Shown here: piece after piece, positions 3,634 to 18,604 of the stretch
Layout of the letters: each line of letters begins with the position of its first letter
Position numbering within the stretch: the first letter of the stretch is position 1
Assembly (NCBI GenBank): GCA_013335405.1
Contig: JAAXVR010000021.1
Coordinates: 1 to 53,289, forward strand
From: Chlorobiaceae bacterium
GTDB taxonomy: Bacteria > Bacteroidota > Chlorobiia > Chlorobiales > Chlorobiaceae
Direction of reading: 5' to 3'
Length of the DNA stretch: 53,289 bases
Notes under the pieces: generated by a model
Seen by the model: only the letters and a program-made list of their open reading frames with translations
Databases searched by the model: none
Told to the model about the DNA's origin: nothing
Position numbers and translations under genes: made by a program

Positions 3634-4119
3634 GTGAGCGGTATGAGAAAAAAAATCGTTTCGGCATATATCCTGGCAACGGCAATGCTCATGGCATTGT
3701 CGCTGATGCTCGTCGGATGCAGTGCCGATAAGGCAACCCTGCCTCCGAGGCCTGCGGTTTCAGGAACGCCGCTGCTGGGTACCACCTGGAGGATTGTCGA
3801 GATAAACGGCGTGAAAACCGGGTTCCTTCCCGGGCAGAAGCTTGACCTTTCCCTCGTGCTTTCGAAAGGCGGCCAGTTAAGGGGCTCGACGGGTTGCAAC
3901 CATCTGAACGGCGCCTATGTCCGTAACGCTGACCGCCTGAGTTTCGGTTCGCTGTTCATAACGCGCATCGCATCCACTCCGCAGCTTATGGAGAGGGAAA
4001 GGGTTTTTCTCGATGCTCTTCGCAAGGTAAATGGCTATGCGATCCATGGCAGCAGGTTGAAGCTTTTCAGCAGTGGCGGACAGAAAATCATGGAACTTCT
4101 TGCTCTCGGTAAATTCTGA
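3634..4119 (+). CDS. META-domain (HslJ-like) lipoprotein
   Basis: A 161-residue protein with a lipoprotein signal (hydrophobic stretch ending LMLVGC, lipobox Cys near residue 29), so it should be anchored on the outer face of the inner membrane or in the outer membrane. The rest matches the META/HslJ fold: TTWRIVEINGV at the start, then GSTGCNHLNGAY, then a C-terminal strand ending KIMELL. E. coli HslJ is a heat-inducible envelope lipoprotein of uncertain role. The GTG at 3634 follows GAGGAG at good spacing; the ATG at 3643 is the alternative. Function beyond the fold is unknown. Confidence 0.8.
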   Translation: MSGMRKKIVSAYILATAMLMALSLMLVGCSADKATLPPRPAVSGTPLLGTTWRIVEINGVKTGFLPGQKLDLSLVLSKGGQLRGSTGCNHLNGAYVRNADRLSFGSLFITRIASTPQLMERERVFLDALRKVNGYAIHGSRLKLFSSGGQKIMELLALGKF

Positions 4120-4232
4120 CGGAACTTTGCGCCGTCATAAAATGTTCATGAATACCATTGCAAGCAGGTATCATTTTTTTATTTTGCCTGCAACAGCTCT
4201 TTCGGGAGCGATAGACGATAACGATCAAACAT

Positions 4233-4325
4233 ATGTGCACTACGAACCGGAACATCCTTGCCCAGAATAGCCTCGGGCTACTTCTACCGGGTTTCTTCGC
4301 TCGGAGTGGGGGTGCTTTTTTCTAG
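4233..4325 (+). CDS. Putative leucine leader peptide (leuL-like)
   Basis: A 30-codon frame (ATG at 4233, TAG at 4323) just upstream of leuA. Codons 14-18 read CTC GGG CTA CTT CTA, giving LGLLL; with CTT at codon 9 there are five Leu in 30 residues. The CTA/CTT codons fall exactly in the 5' arm of a hairpin, as in classical amino-acid attenuators (E. coli leuL has four adjacent Leu codons). The weak point is the Shine-Dalgarno: GGGAG at 4204 is too far upstream, so initiation would rely on a poor site. The call rests on codon clustering plus RNA structure. Confidence 0.6.
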   Translation: MCTTNRNILAQNSLGLLLPGFFARSGGAFF

Positions 4326-4394
4326 TTTGTTCTGTACGGTCAAGGAATAAAACAGTTCGGAAGCCGCCATCCCTCTCGGGTTGGAGGCTTTTTT
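4278..4394 (+). promoter_or_regulatory. Leucine transcription attenuator of leuA
   Basis: Mutually exclusive pairings can be drawn. Arm 1, CTACTTC (4278-4284, inside the Leu codons), pairs with arm 2, GGAGTGG (4303-4309), counting G-U pairs. Arm 2, GAGTGGGGGTG (4304-4314), can pair with arm 3, CGCCATCCCTC (4365-4375), at 9 of 11 positions, forming an antiterminator. Arm 3, AAGCCGCCATCC (4361-4372), pairs with arm 4 (4379-4390) to give a terminator ending in a six-T run. Ribosome stalling at Leu codons would cover arm 1, free arm 2 and allow read-through into leuA. The mechanism is inferred; the pairings are read from sequence. Confidence 0.6.
4361..4394 (+). terminator. Intrinsic terminator in the leuA leader
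   Basis: AAGCCGCCATCC (4361-4372) and GGTTGGAGGCTT (4379-4390) form a stem with 10 of 12 pairs and a 6-nt loop, followed by TTTTTT through 4394. It lies 31 bp before the leuA start codon, so it must be conditional or leuA must have an internal promoter. Confidence 0.75.
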
Positions 4395-4425
4395 CGTTTA
4401 ATGGACTAAATGAGAGGATGAAGCA

Positions 4426-6108
4426 GTGAAAAAAATGAACTTCGAAAAATACTCGGCATATCCGCCGGTTGAGATTGCCGGACGGACATGGCCGGACAAG
4501 ACCATCACGAAAGCGCCGGTATGGTGCAGCGTAGATCTCAGGGACGGCAACCAGGCGCTCCCTGTACCCATGAGCGTGGATGAAAAGGTCGCCATGTTCC
4601 AGCTTCTCGTTTCGGTCGGGTTCAAGGAAATCGAGGTCGGGTTTCCCTCGGCTTCCGCGACAGAGTTCGCTTTTGTCCGCCGTTTGATCGAAAAGAAGCT
4701 TATCCCGGCCGATGTCACTATCCAGGTGCTCACGCAGTCACGTGAACACCTGATACGCAAAACATTCGATGCGATCAGCGGCGCTGATAATGCCATTGTC
4801 CACCTGTACAACTCGACGTCAACCCTCCAGCGCGATGTCGTGTTCCGCAAGAACAGGGACGAGATCAGGGCGATTGCCATAGAAGGCACGGCGCTCGTGA
4901 GGCGCCTGAAGGAGAAAAACGGAAATCCGGGGATCCGTCTGGAATACAGTCCGGAAAGTTTTACCGGCACCGAACTGGACTATGCACTGGAGGTATGCCA
5001 TGCGGTCATGGATACCTGGGGGGCCTCCGAGGAAGATAACATCATCCTCAACCTGCCCTCGACCGTCGAAATGTCGCAGCCGAACATCTATGCGGACAGG
5101 ATCGAATGGTTCTGCCGTAACATCAAGCGGCGGGATGCCGTCCTGATCAGCGTCCACACCCATAACGACCGCGGAACTGCAGTCGCGGCAGCTGAATTTG
5201 CCGTAATGGCCGGGGCGGATCGGGTCGAAGGTGCGCTTTTCGGCAATGGAGAGCGGTGCGGGAACATGGATATCGTGGTCATGGCTCTTAACCTGTTCAG
5301 TCAGGGGGTGGATCCGAAGCTGGATTTTTCCGATCTGCCGAGGATCCGGGAAGTTTACCGCAAATGCACCCGTATGGATATCCATCCTCGCCATCCATAC
5401 GCGGGGGAGCTTGTCTATACGGCTTTTTCCGGGTCACACCAGGATGCCATCAGCAAAGGCATGAAAGCGAATTTCAATTCGAACGGCGGATTGTGGGCTG
5501 TACCCTACCTGCCGATCGATCCCCGCGACGTCGGCTGCAACTACGAAGCGATCGTACGTATCAACAGCCAGTCCGGGAAAGGAGGTATGGCGTATATCCT
5601 TGAGACGGACTACGGAATCCAGGTTCCGAAATGGATGCAGCCCGATTTCGCCGAGGCTGTCCAGGGCGTTGCGGACAGGACCGGCGTCGAGCTTTCACCT
5701 TCGCAGATCCATGATCTTTTCCACTCCGAATATGTGACGCTGAAGGAGCCGATTCTGCTGAAGAAATGCCATATCACCTGGGATGACATGGACCCGGAAC
5801 TCAATCAGGAGGAGGCTACCTCCCTCAGTTGTGTCATGCTGAAGGACGAGAAGGAGTTCAGCTTCGAGGCGAAAGGGAATGGTCCGCTCGACGCTTTCGC
5901 GAAAGGGTTCGTGAATACCAGCGGGATAGAATTCAGCGTCGAGGAGTATGCGGAACATGCGATCGGCCACAGTGCAGGAGCACCAGCCATCGCGTATATA
6001 AAGATCGGGACAGCCGACGGTCGTATCGCTTTCGGAGCCGGTATCGATTCAAATATCAGCCTCGCATCGATAAAAGCCACGGTCAGCGCACTGAACCGTC
6101 TTCCATGA
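4426..6108 (+). CDS. leuA: 2-isopropylmalate synthase (type 2 LeuA)
   Basis: A 560-residue enzyme that condenses acetyl-CoA with 2-oxoisovalerate, the first committed step of leucine synthesis. The catalytic TIM barrel is shown by SVDLRDGNQAL near residue 35 (divalent-metal Asp), by VGFPSAS, and by the metal-binding HTHNDRG near residue 240. The region after about residue 430 is the LeuA allosteric domain that binds leucine. The length and the DLRDGNQAL form are those of the longer actinobacterial/fungal-type LeuA. The GTG at 4426 follows GAGAGGA at 7-8 bp; an ATG lies three codons later. The leader with an attenuator suggests leucine control at transcription as well as feedback inhibition. 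No other leu genes are in the window. Confidence 0.95.
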   Translation: MKKMNFEKYSAYPPVEIAGRTWPDKTITKAPVWCSVDLRDGNQALPVPMSVDEKVAMFQLLVSVGFKEIEVGFPSASATEFAFVRRLIEKKLIPADVTIQVLTQSREHLIRKTFDAISGADNAIVHLYNSTSTLQRDVVFRKNRDEIRAIAIEGTALVRRLKEKNGNPGIRLEYSPESFTGTELDYALEVCHAVMDTWGASEEDNIILNLPSTVEMSQPNIYADRIEWFCRNIKRRDAVLISVHTHNDRGTAVAAAEFAVMAGADRVEGALFGNGERCGNMDIVVMALNLFSQGVDPKLDFSDLPRIREVYRKCTRMDIHPRHPYAGELVYTAFSGSHQDAISKGMKANFNSNGGLWAVPYLPIDPRDVGCNYEAIVRINSQSGKGGMAYILETDYGIQVPKWMQPDFAEAVQGVADRTGVELSPSQIHDLFHSEYVTLKEPILLKKCHITWDDMDPELNQEEATSLSCVMLKDEKEFSFEAKGNGPLDAFAKGFVNTSGIEFSVEEYAEHAIGHSAGAPAIAYIKIGTADGRIAFGAGIDSNISLASIKATVSALNRLP

Positions 6109-16525: not shown

Positions 16526-18604
16526 TTAGAGCAAACCGGCCAGGGCGAGAAGCATATCGATCAGCTTGATGCCGGCGAAAGGCATGAGGACGCCTCCGAC
16601 GCCATAGAGAAGCAGATTTTTTCTCAGGATGACATCTGCTCCGAATGGCCGGTATTTGACTCCCCTGATCGCGATCGGGATGAGGGCCGGAATAATGAGT
16701 GCATTGAAAATGAGTGCCGAAAGAATTCCGCTCCGGGGTGTGCTCAGGTGCATGACGTTCAGAATATCGAGTCCGGGAAGGGCCAGGATGAACATGGCGG
16801 GAATAATAGCAAAATACTTGGAGATATCGTTGGCGATGGAAAATGTCGTCAGTGCTCCCCTGGTCATGAGCAGCTGTTTGCCTATTTCAATGACTTCCAC
16901 CAGTTTTGTCGGGTCGCTGTCGAGGTCGACCATGTTGCCGGCCTCTTTTGCTGCCTGGGTTCCCGAGTTCATTGCAACGCCAATATCTGCCTGCGCAAGG
17001 GCGGGCGCATCATTGGTGCCGTCACCCATCATGGCGACAAGCCGTCCTTTCTGCTGTTCCCCGCGAATATAGGCGAGCTTGTCTTCCGGTCGGGCTTCGG
17101 CGATAAAATCATCGACTCCGGCATCTTTCGCTATCGACGCTGCTGTCAGCGGGTTGTCGCCCGTGACCATGACAATACGCAACCCCATCGCACGCAACCT
17201 GGCAAAACGGTCTGAAATACCGGGTTTCAGGATATCGGCCAGCCCTACGACTCCGAGAGGATGTGTCGTTTCGGCAACGACGATAGGGGTCATTCCTGCC
17301 CTGGCGATTTCATCGACATGGTGCTGTAATTCATCGGGAACGTGGCCTCCCGCTCTGGTGATAAAATTCCTGATCGCATCCGGCGCTCCTTTTCTCAGCG
17401 AGTTGCCATCCTTGCGGTCAACCCCGCTCAGTCTCGTCTGGGCAGTGAACGGGATGACAGTATCTTCAGTTTCACGGGGCGCTGACATTGAAAGTGTCTG
17501 TTCTCCAAGCGCGACGATTGACTTGCCTTCCGGGGTGATATCACCTGCTGAAGCCTGCATGGCTATGGCGGCAAGGTGTTCCATCGTTACTCCGGCGAGG
17601 GGGCGGTAACAGGTGGCCTGCCTGTTGCCCATCGTTATGGTGCCTGTCTTGTCGAGCAGCAGGGTATCGACGTCTCCTGCAAGTTCGACCGCTTTTCCGC
17701 TCTTCGCCAGAACGTTGGCTGAAAGAGCCCGGTTCATTCCTGCAAGACCGATCGCGGAAAGCAGGGCTCCAATCGTGGTGGGGATCAGGCAGACAAGCAG
17801 TGCGACGAGTGTCGGCACAGGAATGTCGATACCGAAATATCTTCCGATAGGCCACAGCGAGCCGGTGACCAGGAGAAAAGCGAGGGTCAGACCGGAAAGA
17901 GTTACGGTCAGGGCAAGCTCATTCGGTGTTTTCTGGCGGACCGCACCTTCGACGAGGGCAATCATCCTGTCGAGAAAGGAGTTGCCCGACGATGCGGTGA
18001 TCTGAACGACAATAGTGTCGGAAAGCACTCTTGTCCCACCGACGACCCCTGCCTGGTCGCTGCCCGCCTCGCGAAGTACCGGGGCTGATTCGCCCGTAAT
18101 TGCGGATTCGTCGATCATGGCCGCTCCCCTGATCACTTCGCCGTCACCCGGAATATTTTCCCCGGCAGATACCACGACAAGGTCGTTTTCCCGAAGTTCT
18201 TCCGAGCTGACGATGATCTCCCTGCCATCCTGGATTTTCCTTGCCACAGTTTGTTTCCTGGCATTTTTCAGGCTGTCGGCCTGTGCTTTTCCTCGTGCCT
18301 CGGCGAGGGCTTCGGCAAAGTTTGAAAAGATGACGGTCAGCCAGAGAATGATGGTGACCGAGATAGTGTAGACAAGGTTGTCCTTGCCCGATAAGGCATC
18401 CGAGAAGGTGACCAGTGTCGTCAGGATTGCGCCCGCTTCGGTCACGAACATGACCGGATTTCTCGCCATTGCGCGCAAATCGAGATTCACCAACGCTTTC
18501 CATGTTGCCGTAAGCACCAGTTTCTTTTCAAAAACCGAGGCAGCTATTGCATGGCGGCGAGTTGTTTTCGCCGGAGTGCCGTTATGTGTGGCGGTATCGC
18601 TCAT
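16526..18604 (-). CDS. kdpB: K+-transporting P-type ATPase subunit KdpB
   Basis: A 692-residue P-type ATPase, the energy-coupling subunit of the high-affinity Kdp pump. The actuator motif ITGES is near residue 160, the phosphorylation motif DKTGT near 310, and the hinge GDGTNDAPAL near 520; hydrophobic segments flank the cytoplasmic domains. Length is standard. Starts with ATG at 18604, 39 bp after kdpA. Confidence 0.97.
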   Translation of the reverse strand: MSDTATHNGTPAKTTRRHAIAASVFEKKLVLTATWKALVNLDLRAMARNPVMFVTEAGAILTTLVTFSDALSGKDNLVYTISVTIILWLTVIFSNFAEALAEARGKAQADSLKNARKQTVARKIQDGREIIVSSEELRENDLVVVSAGENIPGDGEVIRGAAMIDESAITGESAPVLREAGSDQAGVVGGTRVLSDTIVVQITASSGNSFLDRMIALVEGAVRQKTPNELALTVTLSGLTLAFLLVTGSLWPIGRYFGIDIPVPTLVALLVCLIPTTIGALLSAIGLAGMNRALSANVLAKSGKAVELAGDVDTLLLDKTGTITMGNRQATCYRPLAGVTMEHLAAIAMQASAGDITPEGKSIVALGEQTLSMSAPRETEDTVIPFTAQTRLSGVDRKDGNSLRKGAPDAIRNFITRAGGHVPDELQHHVDEIARAGMTPIVVAETTHPLGVVGLADILKPGISDRFARLRAMGLRIVMVTGDNPLTAASIAKDAGVDDFIAEARPEDKLAYIRGEQQKGRLVAMMGDGTNDAPALAQADIGVAMNSGTQAAKEAGNMVDLDSDPTKLVEVIEIGKQLLMTRGALTTFSIANDISKYFAIIPAMFILALPGLDILNVMHLSTPRSGILSALIFNALIIPALIPIAIRGVKYRPFGADVILRKNLLLYGVGGVLMPFAGIKLIDMLLALAGLL

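Follow-up and report, generated by a model that had tools for sequence, protein, structure and literature searches.

A leucine-rich leader and three alternative RNA helices precede leuA

The leuA gene of a Chlorobiaceae bacterium is preceded by a short, leucine-rich open reading frame and by RNA arms that can form three alternative helices, the last of which is an intrinsic terminator. We consider this element very probably a classical, ribosome-mediated transcription attenuator that senses charged tRNA-Leu, and the comparative evidence is decisive among its supports. The window analyzed here (the whole stretch of 53,289 nucleotides, to which all positions refer unless stated otherwise) belongs to a genome of 2.47 Mb in 62 contigs, and its nearest named relatives are Chlorobiaceae. 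A sequence-only reading had proposed a classical leucine attenuator at this place; the proposal is supported by the conservation of the leader frame and its Leu codons, by the helices, by codon bias and by a model of ribosome stalling.

The regulated gene in our proposal, leuA, matches the NCBIfam models PRK03739 (847 bits, cut-off 455) and TIGR00970 (723 bits, cut-off 697.4). Another leuA (TIGR00973) is found elsewhere in the same genome, beside ilvD, ilvB, ilvC, and cimA (TIGR00977), and the leuA of the window is thus a second, stand-alone isopropylmalate synthase. The upstream gene ends at 4119, and 31 bases separate the terminator from the leuA start. The features of the locus are as follows.

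4158 to 4186, forward strand: promoter-like block TTGCAAG-n-TATTTTG, from which transcription is predicted to begin near 4193; the block pattern is shared with relatives
4233 to 4325, forward strand: leader peptide ORF, MCTTNRNILAQNSLGLLLPGFFARSGGAFF and stop, without Shine-Dalgarno; frame and Leu codons conserved in relatives
4257 to 4286, forward strand: Leu codons 9 (CTT, 4257), 14 (CTC, 4272), 16 (CTA, 4278), 17 (CTT, 4281), and 18 (CTA, 4284), from the sequence
4235 to 4261, forward strand: arm 1, partner of 4306-4337 when the ribosome is absent (fold; alignment)
4303 to 4337, forward strand: arm 2, common to helices 1:2 and 2:3, includes the leader stop codon (fold; alignment)
4344 to 4376, forward strand: arm 3, common to antiterminator 2:3 and terminator 3:4 (fold; alignment)
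4378 to 4392, forward strand: arm 4 of the intrinsic terminator (fold; alignment)
4389 to 4394, forward strand: six-T run of the terminator, from the sequence
4412 to 4418, forward strand: Shine-Dalgarno-like stretch GAGAGGA of leuA, from the sequence; a match of at least 4 at 78 of 78 leuA loci
4426 to 6108, forward strand: leuA, 2-isopropylmalate synthase, GTG start, 560 amino acids (NCBIfam)

The region 4225-4400 folds with -58.3 kcal/mol (z -2.5; 5 of 200 dinucleotide shuffles fold as well). Folding places helix 1:2 at 4235-4261 with 4306-4337, helix 2:3 at 4303-4333 with 4344-4376, and the terminator hairpin at 4359-4373/4378-4392 with its T run at 4389-4394, and each of the three helices forms in the state in which it is expected. 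The arms and the terminator with six T residues had been drawn correctly in the sequence-only reading, as had the 30-codon leader, which runs from ATG to TAG. The same reading had laid the LGLLL cluster (codons 14-18, 4272-4286) over arm 1, and this has to be revised: the cluster starts 11 bases downstream of the arm 1 end, in the loop of 1:2, and codon 9 (4257-4259) is the sole Leu codon of the window inside arm 1. A ribosome stalled at the cluster must therefore block 1:2 by its position or sterically and not by covering the arm. The first Leu run of most relatives (approximately codons 9-11) does overlap arm 1. A second T-rich run lies within the leader ORF at 4315-4322 and could give a second, weak terminator-like site; a TTCT-like insert makes it longer in L002, L003, and L055 compared with the other aligned loci.

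From the leader, the arms, their conservation and covariation, the codon bias, and the fold states, all of them properties of the sequence itself, we infer leader translation, ribosome stalling, termination, and leucine as the signal. RNA polymerase would start near 4193 and a ribosome would start the leader at 4233. With leucyl-tRNA scarce, the ribosome would stall at Leu codons 9, 14, and 16-18, two of which are the rare CTA, leaving arm 2 free to pair with arm 3, so that the terminator would be blocked and leuA transcribed. With leucine plentiful, the ribosome would reach the stop codon (4323-4325) inside arm 2 and cover this arm, 3:4 would form, and transcription would terminate ahead of leuA. 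Were translation absent, 1:2 would form and free arm 3 for the terminator.

The element is conserved before leuA in two genera of Chlorobiaceae

We searched 101 genomes for leuA of the window type and took 59 loci (L002-L060), at 58 of which the upstream region is readable (L025 stops at a contig end). An ORF of 22 to 32 codons, rich in Leu and placed ahead of a terminator directly before leuA, is present at 54 of the 58 readable same-genus loci. The remaining four keep leuA and lack the leader: a tRNA-Asn gene replaces the leader and the terminator is retained in L028 and L052, L050 has the terminator alone, and L039 has neither. The leader is dispensable at these four loci. At L045 and L048 a tRNA-Asn(GTT) gene lies upstream of an intact leader and the usual promoter block is absent. 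The tRNA-Asn(GTT) arrangements at L028, L052, L045, and L048 look like stages in which the promoter was replaced and the leader lost.

A covariance model (R1) built from the 54 leaders was used to search 394 genomes of the phylum. Strong matches are confined to the family of the window: they come from the window's genus and from 21 genomes belonging to a second, sister genus; in the latter the element occurs in all 21 sampled genomes, always before leuA, and none of the second genus appears among the R1-negative genomes listed in order of kinship. The search added 25 further loci (21 from the second genus and 4 from the window's own), all directly before leuA, and the leader is readable in 24 of these, the remaining one being cut by a contig end. 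The frame and its Leu codons are thus retained at 54 of 58 same-genus and 24 of 25 further loci, which answers the concern raised with the initial proposal that relatives might not conserve them. The element is present in G157, which we take to be Chlorobaculum tepidum TLS; the L176 leader reads MNTVSNMLLLALSLTGLTCLRGSAL and stop, and is presumably that of Chlorobaculum tepidum TLS. L180 is a Chlorobaculum parvum contig. In the same order outside the family, none of 12 genomes gave an R1 match. Matches beyond Chlorobiaceae (E 4e-6 and weaker) look like plain terminators, and the three that were examined (L189-L191) lack leuA. A second match in the window's own genome (L187) and that at L188 also lack leuA.

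Two variations were seen among the same-genus loci. In 6 of 54 leaders (L010, L012, L014, L016, L023, and L029) the reading frame closes sooner, its stop ending at -114 to -117 where about -100 is usual, and this stop, early by approximately 15 bases, is still near the start of arm 2. The T run of the terminator is interrupted in L008, L009, L017, and L020 (TTTATCC or TTTATTC, with TTTATCC in L008 and L009), and termination may be weaker there.

The leader frame shows signs of coding and is enriched in the rare Leu codon CTA

Judged within the window, the Leu run is no more than suggestive and not convincing by itself. Five codons of the leader specify Leu, CTA being used twice; the chance of at least 5 Leu in 29 codons is 0.22 at the Leu frequency of the window, and among the 899 window ORFs that span 20-40 codons from start to stop, 8 contain at least 4 Leu in 5 codons. 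It is the conservation in relatives that lifts the run beyond chance. Leu accounts for 28.2% of the codons in 78 leaders (start and stop excluded) compared with 11.2% in 32 genes of the window, a share biased slightly upward since the leader finder demanded at least 3 Leu, though this demand is close to the background share (it further required 20-34 codons, or 15-40 codons for the later loci, and a fixed stop range). With start and stop counted, Leu makes up 26.5% in frame versus 9.2 and 5.7% out of frame, and 76 of the 78 leaders contain at least 3 Leu within 4 codons. The rare codon CTA contributes 15.5% of the 574 leader Leu codons, compared with 0.8% in the 32 window genes. Synonymous and nonsynonymous changes stand at 805:1649 in the leader frame versus 432:2025 and 368:2017 in the other two, synonymous changes being about twice as frequent in frame.

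A weak Shine-Dalgarno had been named as a caveat to the attenuator proposal. The weakness is real: 62 of 78 leaders have at most 3 consecutive matches to the anti-Shine-Dalgarno complement, compared with at least 4 matches in 78 of 78 leuA genes. As it is conserved across the leaders, the weak signal is a trait of the family. Upstream, a regular expression for the promoter-like block TTGC-n-T(A/T)T(A/T)TT, 64-92 bases before the leader ATG, matched 39 of 54 same-genus loci, and close variants were found by eye in most of the others. The block resembles the promoter type of Bacteroidetes. It is the only conserved promoter-like block that we saw, and its predicted position upstream of the leader speaks against a promoter downstream of 4394, which had been raised as a possible objection.

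These data bear on a different reading of the leader, as a leucine-rich arrest peptide or as an RNA bound by a protein or small molecule, with the supply of Leu-tRNA not being read. The C-terminal residues of the leader (RGGAF and variants, before the stop) are also conserved, and for actinobacterial leuA, changes to the Leu codons are reported to lack the effect that was expected (PMC1262725). Conservation at the 3' end of the ORF is however explained by arm 2, which must pair with both arms 1 and 3. The peptide drifts between the two genera while the Leu runs persist, CTA is enriched across the 78 leaders, and no Rfam riboswitch or T-box match was obtained in the Chlorobiaceae loci searched. 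We regard an arrest peptide or ligand-binding RNA as unlikely.

Antiterminator and terminator are conserved and covary

We aligned 54 same-genus rows (A1), with L025, L028, L039, L050, and L052 set aside by eye beforehand. Terminator helix 3:4 (13 pairs) is paired in 91.5% of alignment cells, a value reached by none of 500 shuffles, and helices 2:3 (18 pairs) and 1:2 (14 pairs) are paired in 85.5 and 85.9% of cells, each reached in 1 of 500 shuffles. When the arms were slid, paired cells amounted to 32-67% for 3:4, 45-60% for 2:3, and 48-54% for 1:2, controls that lean toward structure because L027 served to define the arms, which were then counted in all 54 rows. The covariance alignment of leuA leaders suggested with the original proposal thus yields covariation scores beyond shuffles for 3:4 and 2:3 (0 of 500 in both cases); that of 1:2 is weak, being reached by 69 of 500 shuffles. 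Neither pairs with both partners changed nor further pair types are more numerous in A1 than in shuffles for 1:2, 2:3, or 3:4. RNAalifold, blind to the named arms, recovers 3:4 and the outer part of 1:2. In members of the second genus examined by eye, GTCAAC/GTTGAC replaces CGAAC/GTTCG in the outer 1:2 helix, with pairing restored.

Could the hairpin at 4359-4394 merely terminate the upstream gene, the leader ORF being incidental? The upstream gene ends at 4119, the hairpin in itself is a plain terminator, and the same kind of hairpin follows the tRNA-Asn gene, without a leader, in L028 and L052. Yet the hairpin stays with leuA while the upstream sequence varies between genomes, its conservation extends to the leader, arm 1, and arm 2, and a conserved promoter-like block separates the leader from the upstream gene; we hold this explanation to be very improbable. 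Least probable of all is a leader whose translation affects mainly the translation or stability of the leuA mRNA and not termination: leaders can work through reinitiation, according to the section of PMC4833913 that concerns them, and the distance from leader stop to leuA start is approximately 100 bases, but a terminator hairpin with invariant pairs is kept between leader and gene in 54 of 54 aligned same-genus loci, and the leuA Shine-Dalgarno-like stretch (4412-4418) lies beyond the mapped helices (the folded region ended at 4397 or 4400).

A stall model reproduces the proposed switch between antiterminator and terminator

For the preferred reading, attenuation by a ribosome on the leader, we modeled the switch by placing the leading edge of the ribosome 15 bases past the first A-site base, ignoring kinetics and pairing across the ribosome. 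In this folding model arm 3 is sequestered by upstream RNA to 0.75 with the ribosome at Leu codons and to 0.22 at the stop codon, and in 78 of 78 leaders the antiterminator is favored more at Leu codons than at the stop codon. Without a ribosome, sequestration is intermediate (0.57), and the Leu positions lie above this state in only 56 of 78 leaders. Shuffling the upstream part gives 0.57 at Leu versus 0.42 at stop, so that the contrast drops from 0.53 to 0.14; overall, the real contrast is attained by 101 of 936 shuffles, and for the window by 0 of 12.

When the ribosome sits on the window leader at codon 14, 16, 17, or 18, the full-length fold contains the antiterminator and no terminator. 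With the ribosome at the stop codon or absent, the terminator forms, accompanied by 1:2 in the latter case. At codon 9 the full-length equilibrium fold has the terminator, although the truncated transcript forms 2:3, and stalling at this position would thus act only kinetically. In the model, this counts against codon 9 as a control codon at equilibrium.

A second leader precedes ilvD in the same genome

In the same genome, ilvD is preceded by an Ile/Val/Leu-rich leader, MSASDSYSF...IIPVVLSQVSILVL and stop (L192, G000:C5:36000-55000, at about 17000-17170 on the minus strand). Most of 30 same-genus loci have a comparable ORF before ilvD whose end is rich in Ile, Val, and Leu; these residues make up 44% of the final 26 codons when all 30 loci are counted, including those, such as L200, where the wrong ORF was picked. 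The leader is followed by a conserved antiterminator-like pair, GCCGxTCCCAAG/CTTCGGGAACGGC, paired in 91% of cells at 29 loci (L200 was left out of this alignment because of its wrongly picked ORF), and by a terminator-like CTTCGGG...CCCG downstream. Covariation of the pair does not go beyond shuffles in the 29 loci because the helix hardly varies, and we therefore present the ilvD leader as a lead. By its sequence it is a probable second branched-chain amino acid attenuator. A script found no Trp leader before trpE (L223) and no His leader before hisG (L226) of this genome; its one match before hisG lies, on inspection by eye, within the frame of the upstream gene.

Leu-rich short ORFs occur before related leuA genes in other phyla

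We surveyed 79 loci, eight from Chlorobiaceae and the remainder from outgroups; the outgroup relatives of this leuA are 52-59% identical. Leu-rich short ORFs precede leuA in L090, L093, L097, L107, L114, L116, L119, and L122 (by script) and in L091 (by eye), several with strong terminators, in MAGs labeled Deferribacteres, Opitutales, Spirochaeta, Nitriliruptoraceae, and others. The Firmicutes relatives surveyed have no such leader, except for a weak TTG-start ORF in L139 (4 Leu in 6 codons). A LeuA tree of 49 rows, covering part of the surveyed loci, unites Chlorobiaceae in a single group (100/100); on this tree the leader label requires 6 changes versus 14.7 with shuffled labels (the Leu-rich ORF of L109, where no T run was seen, was omitted from the label). 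It is conceivable, and we offer this tentatively, that type-2 leuA (PRK03739/TIGR00970) and its leucine leader are a mobile unit, passed from phylum to phylum together with its regulation.

Comparison with known leader systems

Rfam searches over 3900-4700 (E up to 5) returned neither Leu_leader (RF00512) nor T-box (RF00230), and the hits over the window leader (Mico1 and mir-3613) are chance matches only. Leu_leader and T-box likewise gave no gathering-score match in L027, L053, L171, or L058. As a positive control, the T-box model matched before leuA of L094, a relative of this leuA from a Clostridium MAG. The T-box before Firmicutes leuA is alike in its control by tRNA charging; it differs in sensing tRNA directly, without a leader peptide, and no T-box is found at the Chlorobiaceae loci searched.

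RF00512 represents the leu operon attenuator (leuL) of Escherichia coli and Salmonella. In E. coli, leuL has a short leader with a Leu run including the rare CUA, three alternative helices, and an intrinsic terminator. The chlorobial element shares with leuL the Leu-run leader with CUA, the three alternative helices, the terminator, and a leucine biosynthesis gene downstream. It differs in controlling one stand-alone leuA, in a leader without Shine-Dalgarno, and in having no Rfam match, the sequences being compared via Rfam only.

The actinobacterial LEU element, as far as the relevant part of Seliverstov et al. (2005, PMC1262725) describes it, likewise has a leader peptide ahead of leuA in which Leu codons form a run. 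It is a conserved pseudoknot or alternative structure without other attenuator parts, and mutations of its Leu codons did not fit attenuation; the chlorobial element, set apart here by description, conserves terminator and antiterminator instead. In Firmicutes, leader-peptide attenuators are described for hisS/hisZ of bacilli (Naville and Gautheret 2010, PMC2965389, in the sections on leader peptides), and a leucine-rich attenuator peptide for Staphylococcus aureus (PMC5794164, in the part that mentions it). These resemble the present element as ribosome-sensed leaders with terminators outside Proteobacteria, and differ, again by description, in gene and lineage. According to the same sections of PMC2965389, leader peptides were previously known only from Proteobacteria and Actinobacteria, and Chlorobia figure there only for a hisS T-box. 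The expectation that a leucine attenuator in this phylum would extend the range of such systems thus needs qualifying: attenuators beyond Proteobacteria and Actinobacteria are already described in Firmicutes, and for Chlorobiota we found no report of leader-peptide attenuation, for leucine or any other amino acid, in the searchable literature, though Lopatovskaya et al. (2010) may contain an earlier prediction. The mechanism is a known one and the lineage seems newly added, as far as this literature goes.

Implications

Chlorobiaceae gain a predicted leucine-responsive switch, in a lineage for which the searchable literature holds no amino acid attenuation. If type-2 leuA and its leader do travel as a mobile unit, ribosome-mediated leucine attenuation would be far wider than reported. 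Together with the probable ilvD leader, our findings suggest that branched-chain amino acid synthesis in these phototrophs is controlled by coupled transcription and translation. An attenuator before leuA would imply coupling of transcription to translation in this lineage, as well as efficient initiation by ribosomes at leaders that lack a Shine-Dalgarno.
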